Assembly: GCA_025786725.1 (NCBI GenBank)
Contig: JAHLTZ010000017.1
Coordinates: 310,001 to 374,000 of the forward strand
Direction of reading: 5' to 3'
DNA: 64,000 nucleotides
Source: Syncephalis fuscata
Taxonomy: Eukaryota > Zoopagomycota > Zoopagomycetes > Zoopagales > Piptocephalidaceae
This document shows, in pieces, positions 5,873-36,786 of this stretch; the stretch's first letter is position 1; each line of letters starts with the position of its first letter. The notes under the pieces are model-generated. The model was not told the DNA's origin. It was given only the letters and a program-made list of their open reading frames with translations, and ran no database searches. A program made the position numbers and the translations under genes.

Positions 5873-6434
5873 TTACACTATTTTCATAAGTTTATACAAA
5901 ATGTAACATAGTTAGCGTATAAATCAATACTATGTAATTTACTTACTAACTATAGATTGTTAAACACGCAGTGCGCAGTATGTTTAATGCATAGCTAATT
6001 GCTATATACGTAACTTACCAGCTATTGATGGCAAATTATCGGGCACAATGCATATATTAATTTATAGCAATTGCTATACAATGTCACTTACGTACTATTA
6101 GTGTCAAATTATTGGACACACAATACATAGCATATGTTAATTTATAGTTAATTAATATACAATATCACTTACAAGCTATTAACATCAGGTAATCAAACAG
6201 TGTGTTATGTATTACCCACAGTAAATTAAACATAAAGATACATTCTATTAATATGTAGCATTACTTACGATCTGGTAACATCGGTTGGTAATGCAAGCAG
6301 TATTTAATTAGCTAAGTAGTTAATTATTGTAATACAATATATTACCACGAATTGGAGCCGGCTTAGCATCCACCATGGCTGTAGCGGCTATCAAAGCCAC
6401 GCAATGGCACAGATGCGGCAATAGAAAGCTTCAT
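5873..6434 (-). pseudogene. Secreted-peptide microexon gene, frame-disrupted copy
   Basis: Counterpart of the gene at 36219-36786. Exon 1 (6346-6434) starts with ATG at 6434 but is 89 nt instead of 91. Two one-base deletions inside the signal-peptide region change the frame and give an early stop. Downstream the five AG-NNN-GT units are intact and identical in their triplets: ATC 6269-6271, CTT 6173-6175, TAC 6092-6094, CTG 6019-6021, TTA 5947-5949. The terminal exon supplies TG then TAA (5875-5873). A base is also missing just before the ATG. Because the differences are all single-base losses, an assembly error is as likely as true decay. Confidence 0.6.
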
Positions 6435-17963: not shown

Positions 17964-18197
17964 ATGAAACTTTCTATTACCGTCATTTGCACCATTGTTG
18001 TGGCTTTTGTGGCCACTACAACCATAGTGGATGCTAAACCAGCCTTAGTTCGTCGTGGTGCTGGCTATTGCGGCGGTGGATGCGATCGGGCTTGTAATCG
18101 TCCTAGCAGGGGAGGATGGTGCGGTCGCAAGGCTGAATGCACCTATAGTGAATGCATGGAAAAATGCAAAACCTATTGCGTAGCTCTTAAGCAATAA
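17964..18197 (+). CDS. Small secreted cysteine-rich peptide
   Basis: 77 residues, no intron. Residues 1-24 are a clear signal peptide (MKLSITVICTIVVAF onward, ending VDA), and the mature part begins KPALVRRG. It has eight cysteines at residues 36, 40, 44, 53, 59, 64, 68 and 72, giving spacing C-x3-C-x3-C-x8-C-x5-C-x4-C-x3-C-x3-C, so up to four disulphides. The repeated C-x3-C suggests two short disulphide-linked helices. The signal peptide, the KPA start of the mature part and the pre-ATG leader (TCTTAACAAAT...CACC) match the microexon peptide genes at 36786 and 34515, but the Cys-rich part is unique to this gene. I recognise no named family. Roles as an antimicrobial, effector or signalling peptide are all possible and none is shown. 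Confidence 0.82.
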   Translation: MKLSITVICTIVVAFVATTTIVDAKPALVRRGAGYCGGGCDRACNRPSRGGWCGRKAECTYSECMEKCKTYCVALKQ

Positions 18198-32655: not shown

Positions 32656-34515
32656 TTAATCTATGTTCATAAATTTATACAGCAAATTTCATGTAGTTAG
32701 TGTTTAAATCAACAATATATAAAATTATTTACCAACTATTAGTGCAAGTTATTAAACACACGCAGTGCATAAAGTGTAATTAGTTTATAACTATTTAATA
32801 TACAATGGCACTTACACCCTATCAACACAAGTTATTACACAAGAGCAGTACATAACATATGCTTAGTGTATCGATAATTTATATAAAATGCCACTTACGG
32901 ACTATTAATGTTGTTATTGAATACATACAGTGTATATCACATGGTCAGTATATATTTGGTTAGTACAAAGTTTCACCTACAAGCTACCAAATACACGCAG
33001 TACATAGAACATGTTTAATATACAGTTGAGTAATATACTATGTCACTTACGACCTATTGATAGCCGTTATTAAAAATGTAATCCATGCCGCATAATTAAT
33101 ATATAGCTGGTTAATATACAATGTCACTTACGTTCTATTAATACAAGCCATTAAACATACACATTGCATGGTATATATTTAGCGTATATTTGCCTAATAT
33201 ATAGAGTTATTTACCAGCTATTAATATAAGTCGTTAAACAGATAGATTGTGTGACATGTTTAACACATAACTAACTAAAACATAATTTCATTTACCAGCT
33301 ATTGATATAAGTTATTACACACACGTAGTGGATGATATATGCTTAGTAAATAGTTAATTAATATAAAATGTTATCTACCTTCTATTGGTGCAGGTTATCC
33401 ACATCAAATAATTTATGATTAGCGTATAAATAATTACTATACAATGTCACTTACTAGCTATTAATACAGATTATTACACAAATGTGCATGTCATATACTT
33501 AGTAAATTATCAATTAACATACAATGTCATTTACCAGTTGTTACTTCAAGATATTAAGCAATCACAGTACATAGCATAGGCTTAGTTTTTAGTCGATTAA
33601 TAAACAATGCCATTTACCAGCTATCGATATAGGTTATCAAGCAGACGTAGTGCATATCATATATTTAGTGAATGAACGATTAATATACAGTATCACTTAC
33701 GTTCTATCGATACAAATTATTATACAGATGAAATACCCGACATATGTTAGTACATAAATAGCTAATTTGCAATTCCACTTACTTCCTATTGATACAAGGG
33801 ATTACACATCATATGGTGCATGCTTAGTGTATAAATAATTAACATACAGTATTACTTACCCCCTAGCAATACAATTTATCATACAAGCATAGTATACAAT
33901 CTATATTTAGTGCGTAGCTATTTAATATATAATGCCATTTACCAACTATTAATATAAGCATTGCATAAACGTAGTACATAGCATATGCTTAGCATATAGT
34001 TAATTAATATGCAGCGTCATTTACCAACTATTGATACATGATATTAAACAACCACAGGGCATGATATTTTAGTATAATCGATTAATATAGCATTTTACTT
34101 ACAGGCTATTAATGTACGTTATTAAACAAATATGGTACATGTTATATGCTTAGCGTATAGCCAATAAATACACGACGTCACTTACCAACTATCAATACAG
34201 GTTAGTATACAGGCATGCATGCCACATACTTAGTGTATAGTCAATTAATACATAATTTCATTTACTTTCTATTAATACAAGTTATTAAACATAAAAATTA
34301 TATGGTGTATGTTTAGCATATAATAACTAATATATAATGACGCTTACGATCTATTAACGTGGTTTTTCAGTGTATACATTATTTAATTAAGTGAATGACT
34401 GATTATTGTAATACGACATACCACGACGGCCTAGAGTCGGCATGGCATCCACCGTAGCTGTGATAACTACCAAGGCCATAAAAATGGTACATACGACGCC
34501 AATAGAAAACTTCAT
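32656..34515 (-). CDS. Secreted peptide built from tandem 3-nt microexons (predicted)
   Basis: Exon 1 (34515-34422, 94 nt) starts with ATG and encodes a signal peptide (MKFSIGVVCTIFMALV onward to VDA) plus MPTLGRR, ending in phase 1 before GTATGT. It is followed by 21 units of about 81 bp, each with AG, exactly three bases, then GTAAGT or a close variant. The terminal exon after GAACATAG (32668-32661) supplies AT then TAA at 32658-32656. Joining the triplets keeps the exon 1 frame open to that stop, giving about 52 residues, with a mature peptide of about 28 that starts MPTLGRRDQIAF and ends PFRFD. One unit (33535-33537) has a destroyed acceptor (AA), so 20 microexons are usable. Splicing is inferred from sequence alone. 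Alternatives are a non-coding ratchet intron or a satellite carrying pseudo-splice sites. Confidence 0.55.
32733..34350 (-). repeat. Tandem array of 21 intron-like units with variable triplets
   Basis: Spacing between triplets is 70-83 bp, mostly 80-83. Triplets in minus-strand order, by lowest coordinate: ATC 34348, AAA 34266, TTG 34186, CCT 34103, TTG 34025, TTG 33943, GGG 33860, GAA 33783, AAC 33701, CTG 33618, CTG 33535 (acceptor lost), CTA 33455, AAG 33379, CTG 33296, CTG 33215, AAC 33132, GTC 33051, CTT 32981, TCC 32899, GGT 32816, TTG 32733. Flanks are conserved: upstream AAGT(A)TTAATAG-like, downstream GTAAGTGACAT-like. Units share further AT-rich sequence including CTAAG-type stretches that could serve as branch sites. 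The triplet itself is the most variable part. Confidence 0.93.
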
Positions 34516-36218: not shown

Positions 36219-36786
36219 TTACACTATTTTCATAAGTTTATACAAAATGTAACATAGTTAGCGTATAAATCAATACTATGTAATTCTACTTACTAACTAT
36301 AGATTGTTAAACACGCAGTGCGCAGTATGTTTAATGCATAGCTAATTGATATATACGTAACTTACCAGCTATTGATGGCAAATTATCGGGCACAATGCAT
36401 ATATTAATTTATAGCTAATTGCTATACAATGGCACTTACGTACTATTAGTGTCAAATTATTGGACACACAATACATAGCATATGTTAATTTATAGTTAAT
36501 TAATATACAATATCACTTACAAGCTATTAACATCAGGTAATCAAACAGTGTGTTATGTATTACCCACAGTAAATTAAACATAAATGATACATTCTATTAA
36601 TATGTAGCATTACTTACGATCTGGTAACATCGGTTAGGTAATGCAAGCAGTATTTAATTAGCTAAGTAGTTAATTATTGTAATACAATATATTACCACGA
36701 ATTGGAGCCGGCTTAGCATCCACCATGGCTGTAGCGGCTATCAAAGCCACGACAATGGCACAGATGGCGGCAATAGAAAGCTTCAT
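36219..36786 (-). CDS. Secreted short peptide with five 3-nt microexons (predicted)
   Basis: Exon 1 (36786-36696, 91 nt) encodes a signal peptide (MKLSIAAICAIVVAL onward to VDA) and KPAPIR, ending in phase 1 before GTAATA. Five AG-NNN-GT units follow: ATC 36618-36620, CTT 36521-36523, TAC 36440-36442, CTG 36366-36368, TTA 36294-36296. The terminal exon after GAAAATAG (36231-36224) gives TG then TAA at 36221-36219. Spliced this way the mature part is about 12 residues, KPAPIRDPLPVM. The last intron is 70 nt, against 72 nt in the array gene, and the stop sits at the matching place. The first triplet (ATC) is the same in both genes. Product function unknown; size and secretion would suit a signalling peptide, but this is only a guess. 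Confidence 0.55.

Follow-up and report, generated by a model that had tools for sequence, protein, structure and literature searches.

Predicted assembly of secreted peptides from tandem three-nucleotide exons in a large Syncephalis fuscata gene family

Described genes with very short exons

The MEGs of Schistosoma mansoni form a secreted, variable multigene family of 35 genes with many short exons, most of them multiples of three in length; their exons are mostly of 15 bp (with a range of 6–81 bp in the text and 3–81 bp in the abstract of the source), and their introns are of 0.1–5 kb (PMC10526429). The aphid bicycle genes, putative secreted effectors, have about 17 exons on average, nearly all of the internal ones beginning with the second position of a codon (PMC9168663). 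Exons of 1 and 3 nt are used in Fusarium CYP621A, Dactylellina lipS, and Drosophila hth, with one or two tiny exons within ordinary genes (PMC12940212, PMC5639578, PMC7392893), unlike the arrays described below, in which a whole peptide would be encoded in this way.

The locus reported here is a minus-strand gene of Syncephalis fuscata, which is placed in Zoopagomycota, and lies in the window, i.e., the whole stretch of 64,000 nt which was analyzed. At the ratchet points of recursive splicing and in stwintrons, adjacent AG and GT are used stepwise. Few or no coding bases stand between these two sites, whereas the bases in S. fuscata look translated. For a ratchet, the bases should be absent from the mRNA, and the codon-level dependence across the S. 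fuscata introns, which is given below, speaks against this as judged from the sequence alone. Bicycle genes have larger exons and proteins, and in contrast to these insect genes the S. fuscata arrays consist of an intron plus three bases repeated in tandem.

The MEGs and the bicycle genes come nearest among the described genes. Common to the bicycle genes and to the S. fuscata genes are many small internal exons of one phase (PMC9168663): in S. fuscata, phase 1 is set at the end of exon 1, and every later called exon has 3 nt. With the MEGs they share many short exons, secretion, which is predicted here, fast change and a structure that is hard for gene predictors, and they differ from the MEGs in internal exons of 3 nt (likewise a multiple of three) and in tandem introns of about 79 nt (PMC10526429). 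Long introns of the MEG type (0.1 to about 5 kb) were not found, 284 of the 311 gaps between units being shorter than 100 nt. As in the Fusarium CYP621A case, an intronless relative is part of the argument (PMC12940212, PMC5639578).

No homologue among MEGs or aphid bicycle genes was found in two protein searches, which rely on shared 5-residue words and could miss remote kin. Among 5.8 billion proteins, the threaded product of one array gene had eight matches, all of them hypothetical proteins of S. fuscata. With nine aligned intronless members as the query, 14 matches were obtained in the protein database, again all from S. fuscata. Searches of open-licence papers yielded neither an account of genes of this kind nor one of the exon structure of Syncephalis, no mature peptide made solely of single-codon exons and no coding repeat of an intron plus three bases. 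We call the architecture categorically new, while it would work like an extreme micro-exon gene.

The window gene, its paralogs and the unit geometry

The window gene consists of exon 1 (94 nt), 21 units and a terminal exon from position 32660. Its parts and the paralogs within the window are as follows:

34422–34515, minus strand: exon 1, encoding MKFSIGVVCTIFMALVVITATVDAMPTLGRR and, before the donor GTATGT, a single further base (G), hence phase 1; 150 scored genome matches
34348–34350, minus strand: microexon 1, ATC
34266–34268, minus strand: microexon 2, AAA
34186–34188, minus strand: microexon 3, TTG
34103–34105, minus strand: microexon 4, CCT
34025–34027, minus strand: microexon 5, TTG
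33943–33945, minus strand: microexon 6, TTG
33860–33862, minus strand: microexon 7, GGG
33783–33785, minus strand: microexon 8, GAA
33701–33703, minus strand: microexon 9, AAC
33618–33620, minus strand: microexon 10, CTG
33535–33537, minus strand: unit 11, CTG, with AA where the acceptor AG would stand; skipping is probable, and the frame holds in either case
33455–33457, minus strand: microexon 12, CTA
33379–33381, minus strand: microexon 13, AAG
33296–33298, minus strand: microexon 14, CTG
33215–33217, minus strand: microexon 15, CTG
33132–33134, minus strand: microexon 16, AAC
33051–33053, minus strand: microexon 17, GTC
32981–32983, minus strand: microexon 18, CTT; donor GTAGGT, and an acceptor in a weak context (ggtag)
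32899–32901, minus strand: microexon 19, TCC
32816–32818, minus strand: microexon 20, GGT
32733–32735, minus strand: microexon 21, TTG
32656–32660, minus strand: start of the terminal exon; AT ends the last codon, then TAA stop and 3′UTR
17964–18197, plus strand: intronless paralog, sharing the signal peptide and the PALVRR site, with the cysteine-rich domain GAGYCGGGCDRACNRPSRGGWCGRKAECTYSECMEKCKTYCVALKQ and stop
36219–36786, minus strand: small array paralog; exon 1 at 36786–36696 (ending in PIR plus G), five units ATC, CTT, TAC, CTG and TTA, terminal exon TG-TAA at 36223
5873–6434, minus strand: a further, nearly identical copy of that small array gene, its exon 1 carrying indels

The initial annotation had described 21 units of the form AG-NNN-GTAAGT. 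The number of units and their three bases each hold, but AG is present at only 20 of them, and besides GTAAGT the donors GTAAAT, GTAAGC, GTAGAT, and GTAGGT occur. Its count of at least 13 different triplets is exceeded by one (14), and the signal-peptide exon ending in phase 1 was found again on re-reading 34515–34422, where G precedes GTATGT. Threading in phase 1 gives DQIAFVGGKPA(A)KAAERPFRFD and then TAA, so the product is open up to AT-TAA behind the last acceptor, as had been claimed; the predicted peptide starting after RR is DQIAFVGGKPAKAAERPFRFD. A phase-2 stop is present as well, though at codon 13, and at the reported codon 12 only if the unit without AG is skipped. Phase 0 is open too, and therefore the window alone cannot decide between phases 0 and 1.

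The two copies of the small array paralog (36786–36219 and 6434–5873) are duplicated together with their flanks. When the five units of the copy at 36786 are joined by hand, they read as the six residues DPLPVM, followed by TAA.

The array is real and part of a large gene family. At least 150 scored matches to the exon-1 peptide (of 276 candidates) were found in the S. fuscata genome. Near-copies included, 71 of these matches were classed, 48 as array and 23 as intronless members; 40 of the 71 were chosen for a long open frame, so the intronless share is not representative, and L108–L110 stand outside this count. Besides the window gene, 20 genes were read at length, with 9 to 35 called units each.

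Across the 28.95-Mb assembly, 3183 copies of AATAG-NNN-GTAAGT were counted, compared with 28 for a reversed-pattern control. With a 4-base gap the count is at chance level (54 vs. 50 in the control), and exons of 4 nt were rejected on these grounds. Exons of 6 nt were rejected as well, since all but one of the listed rows among 105 matches are 3-nt units read via an upstream ATA. When exon lengths of 0–30 were scanned at 335 donor-like sites of 19 genes, with an acceptor profile which was itself trained on 3-base units, the best score fell on a length of 3 in 328 cases.

The inter-unit gaps below 100 nt range from 63 to 90 nt with a median of 79 nt, and 243 of the 284 measure 76–80 nt; the remaining gaps look mostly like missed or broken units. 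Distributed over the three residue classes modulo three (120, 83, and 81), the 284 gaps are not multiples of three, so that the spacing of three bases alone is fixed. The donor half of the unit was found at 559 places in the genome, 543 of which also have AG three bases upstream (at most one mismatch each). This intron type is therefore nearly confined to arrays, and an introner-type dispersal over unrelated genes was not found. Conserved within the unit intron are CTAA near the middle (+31 to +37) and TAATAAC near the acceptor (−18 to −13), both of which resemble branch points.

The three positions of the triplet are almost free (0.07, 0.32, and 0.01 bit), the second being rich in T, and the 2 bits of the flanking splice sites arise by construction because the units were selected by that motif. 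Both AG and GT are present in 380 of the 402 called units and one is missing in 22. In general, the calling of units needs AG, GT, and a motif score, so that broken ones escape the counts.

A terminal exon with NN-TAA directly behind AG was found in 14 of the 21 genes, and in L045, L049, L050, and L055 the TAA, read by eye, follows one to four codons further in the same phase. The three close copies L043, L044, and L056 have the terminal acceptor ATAG replaced by ATAA; these copies may be decaying, or their end may lie at another place. Exon 1 closes with RR in all 21 genes that were read at length, and the small paralog at 36786 has a single R. The threading of L042 showed one stop, which was caused by an uncalled unit with the donor GTTAGT, and no inner stop was found in 29 genes under the later unit-calling rule. 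Exon 1 ends in phase 1 in all 29 genes read, the search pattern having presupposed a G before the donor.

The predicted mature peptides of the threaded genes have about 9 to 35 residues, as exemplified by L048 (DPGEACVKRCFDTHPFWKTWGSYCRSDFCKDWCP), L049 (DCDDCKKRCRPWASSYLKCVTYYKQC), L053 (GDPGAACENCKRRTGLDWGKCRNGSCRTIC), and L054 (ANCTGKAACKTQGASAPADKRAEWIKNCISGVCKC). Many are cysteine-rich, and 8 of the 21 non-redundant products, including that of the window gene, contain no cysteine. A genome search with one threaded peptide gave no candidate.

Codon signal, divergence and intronless paralogs

In phase 1, the third base of a unit and the first two bases of the next one form a codon, with an intron of about 79 nt in between. 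The order of units was shuffled within 21 arrays, which comprise 406 triplets and 385 junctions; eight of the 29 arrays (L034, L036, L039, L043, L047, L050, L056, and L057) had been dropped as near-copies, and neighbours across a missed unit were treated as joined. No phase-1 stop occurs at the 385 junctions, where 17.3 ± 3.2 are expected (0 of 20000 shuffles as low), and 42 cysteine codons stand against 22.3 ± 3.5 in the shuffles, none of which was as high. The stops in phase 2 are not avoided (30 vs. 32.3 expected). Phase 0 shows two stops, both TGA triplets, compared with 4.9 expected (p 0.11), so that phase 0 is left possible by the stops alone.

Compared with the shuffles, mutual information between neighbouring units is raised for base 3 with the next base 1 (z 11.5) and with the next base 2 (z 8.9). 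The remaining four inter-unit base pairs tested show no such excess. Since dependence exists only between bases which share a phase-1 codon, the triplets appear to be joined and then translated in this phase. A second set of 31 runs, limited to true neighbours (87 junctions), gave no stop (3.6 expected, p 0.012) and nine cysteine codons (5.2 expected, p 0.047); this set is partly kin of the first one (e.g., L030, L063, and L104), and L062 and L102 are near-copies of each other. We regard these results as strong proof, at the level of sequence, that the joined triplets are, or until recently were, translated in phase 1. The initial annotation had read the locus as a phase-1 peptide built up from 3-nt exons. 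This interpretation is thereby supported with one refinement, namely that each codon would straddle an intron rather than being supplied by a single unit. Phase-2 translation was ruled out by the order shuffles together with the position of the stop.

Eleven pairs of paralogs, the more diverged of which may be partly misaligned, show no change at 674 AG/GT positions of called units, whereas 10 of 1037 positions differ in exon 1, 1039 of 15278 in the introns and 78 of 509 in the triplets. The pace of change in the triplets is thus no slower than in the introns, while AG and GT are kept. For the eight closer pairs (window gene–L039, L057–L058, L049–L050, L053–L034, L053–L035, L034–L035, L046–L047, and L044–L056) the differences amount to 12 of 350 triplet positions and 189 of 10742 intron positions. 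Eight units which form a block in L049 are absent from L050. Compared with L058, L057 is shorter by two units, and two further units of it no longer have one of their splice dinucleotides; the frame is kept in both. Gain or loss of units in frame is observed between close paralogs; the initial annotation had proposed that duplication of units lengthens the peptide.

The signal peptide runs straight into a peptide domain without introns in 22 of 40 short stretches and in the window paralog at 17964–18197. These intronless members nearly always have the dibasic site, their peptide domain is often cysteine-rich, and in most of them, compared by eye, the 3′UTR behind the stop is that found behind NN-TAA in the array genes. 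Twelve of the domains align with six common cysteines. L067 reads past the usual stop, and L079–L087, L094–L101, and the window paralog are diverse, mostly cysteine-rich, putative secreted peptides.

The threaded peptides of 15 arrays were scored pairwise against 17 intronless domains, giving a sum of 455 compared with 374.7 ± 17.8 for shuffled peptides (0 of 200); the 15 were taken from the 21 arrays after near-copies had been dropped, and the L042 product includes one uncalled unit. Single genes with values below 0.05 are L048, L053, L049, and the window gene. A profile of eight intronless domains, run against the threaded peptides, did less well and was mostly not significant, with 1 of 21 above all shuffles and three more at p 0.01–0.035.

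A tree of the 5′ flank and exon 1 with 40 rows, which is unrooted and has long branches for L086, L087, L051, and others, needs four changes for its 10 intronless rows (four to five in the bootstraps, at least two forced), and 8 of these 10 rows lie within a well-supported group which also holds 12 array genes. The nesting of intronless members among array genes in this unrooted tree suggests the direction from array to intronless gene. As the intronless genes keep the 5′ flank, they are not simple retrocopies, and their origin would be best explained by intron loss through recombination with cDNA, which implies that a fully spliced mRNA once existed. The reverse, a repeated insertion of introns after every codon, seems far less likely, although the tree is unrooted.

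None of eight family members tried against Pfam gave a match above the cut-off, the weak TIL match of L100 (E 0.018) lying below it. For the mature domain of the intronless L074, structure prediction gave a hairpin of two helices with a mean pLDDT of 85.6, and as its best match in the PDB has an E-value of 2.5, no function was inferred from the fold.

Among the deposited S. fuscata proteins, P0004 (BDF19DRAFT_453770) aligns to the L076 locus over 61 of 61 codons including the stop, by a chain of exon 1, a 74-nt intron, CCA, a 78-nt intron, AAG, a 75-nt intron and the third unit, ATC, which is read into its intron. None of 300 versions with a shuffled tail aligned, and the two 3-nt exons CCA and AAG in phase 1 are the only way to read this protein from the locus; the gene model may rest on transcripts. 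None of the other models placed uses microexons. In P0003, exon 1 is joined to the first unit and then read on, whereas the introns of P0001, P0006, and P0013 are different ones. No intron is present in P0002, P0007, and P0010, P0007 matching at 85 of 86 codons and being marked as partial. The end of P0005 matches the read-through of a third unit, that of L109, preceded by AQN where the joined units give AQD. No exon chain among the kinds tried fits P0005 to L109, and the mismatch could come from a second copy, an allele or a different exon chain.

P0008, P0009, P0011, P0012, and P0014 are outside the placed set of the 14 family proteins, and the full threaded product is found in none of these 14 S. 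fuscata database proteins as far as they are comparable. Where array genes are concerned, the deposited models placed here are apparently wrong, and similar genes may therefore hide elsewhere.

Proposed assembly of the peptides and competing readings

We put at about 0.92 the probability that the window gene is a functional protein-coding member of a large S. fuscata family, with a peptide spliced from 3-nt exons. Exon 1 would contribute the signal peptide together with a brief pro-region whose last residues are the dibasic RR, which is probably cleaved by a Kex2-like protease, and the mature peptide would be joined from tandem 3-nt exons lying between spliceosomal introns of about 79 nt. Because a 3-nt exon is too small for the factors bound at the acceptor and at the donor together, the introns are probably removed successively by intron definition; the length of the introns, their donor GTAAGT, their acceptor TAG and the inner motifs resembling CTAA presumably suit this mode. 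The phase-1 introns would split every mature codon, with base 1 in one microexon and bases 2 and 3 in the next, and the stop codon would sit just within the terminal exon.

As all units have 3 nt and the same phase, gain, loss or skipping of a unit would alter the peptide and leave the reading frame intact. Unequal exchange may find many sites in the introns, which are similar to one another. The intronless members may have been rewritten from fully spliced mRNA by cDNA-mediated intron loss. The peptides would be secreted, and they may have a role towards the host fungus. Syncephalis species are mycoparasites (PMC10386755). A wider proposal is offered tentatively, as less likely than not: the arrays might be codon-exchange loci, in which unequal exchange between the near-identical introns adds, removes and swaps units, in-frame skipping yields more variants of a gene, and spliced mRNA is occasionally written back into fixed versions that lack introns, secreted peptides being diversified residue by residue.

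If the assembly from 3-nt exons is true, it would set a new limit for the spliceosome, with a whole mature peptide from such exons and thousands of them in one genome. Exon definition being impossible at 3 nt, the arrays would serve as a test of models of sequential, intron-defined splicing. The array of introns could then be regarded as a mutational device by which residues are added, removed or swapped while the frame is kept, the family looks like the secreted arsenal of a fungal parasite, and intron loss could be studied in the intronless paralogs as a natural experiment.

That the units are repeated in tandem and keep their splice sites would also fit a satellite carrying decoy sites or a recursive-splicing ratchet, the triplets of which never enter a translated mRNA. 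Untranslated triplets, however, would not avoid phase-1 stops, gain cysteine codons and covary as codons, and a block duplication of units would lift all base pairs equally; the intronless paralogs, moreover, carry peptides where the array would be, and the deposited P0004 model has two such triplets as exons. This explanation is thus very improbable. We give just as little weight to the view that the arrays are silent relics of intronless coding genes with an inherited but disused codon pattern. Coding structure alone could indeed be inherited, and some units have lost AG or GT, but the tree, unrooted as it is, suggests that the change went from array to intronless gene, stops are still absent, and the triplets change at least as fast as the introns around unchanged splice dinucleotides.

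That every triplet is a codon of its own, translated in phase 0, would agree with the open phase 0 of the window gene, the low number of stops (p 0.11) and the T-rich second position; with exon 1 ending in phase 1, two TGA triplets, only two cysteine triplets in 406, a dependence between units which fits phase 1 only and a terminal-exon stop in phase 1, we consider it next to impossible. A different matter is how often the full array is spliced. The frame survives any skip, and about 20 successive removals would probably be prone to error, so that skipped isoforms might prevail and the full-length peptide be a minor product; since the order of the triplets appears to be under selection, neighbours should have been joined often enough to matter, and we hold a predominance of skipped isoforms to be unlikely.

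The assembly of the mature peptide from 3-nt exons is therefore the reading we prefer. Among the family proteins outside the placed set, P0012 and P0014 (111 and 143 aa in total) have the same signal peptide in front of quite different, longer mature parts, as if the leader had been reused for other cargoes. The window also contains a subtilase gene with PA and Fn3-like domains on the minus strand (58189–55335).
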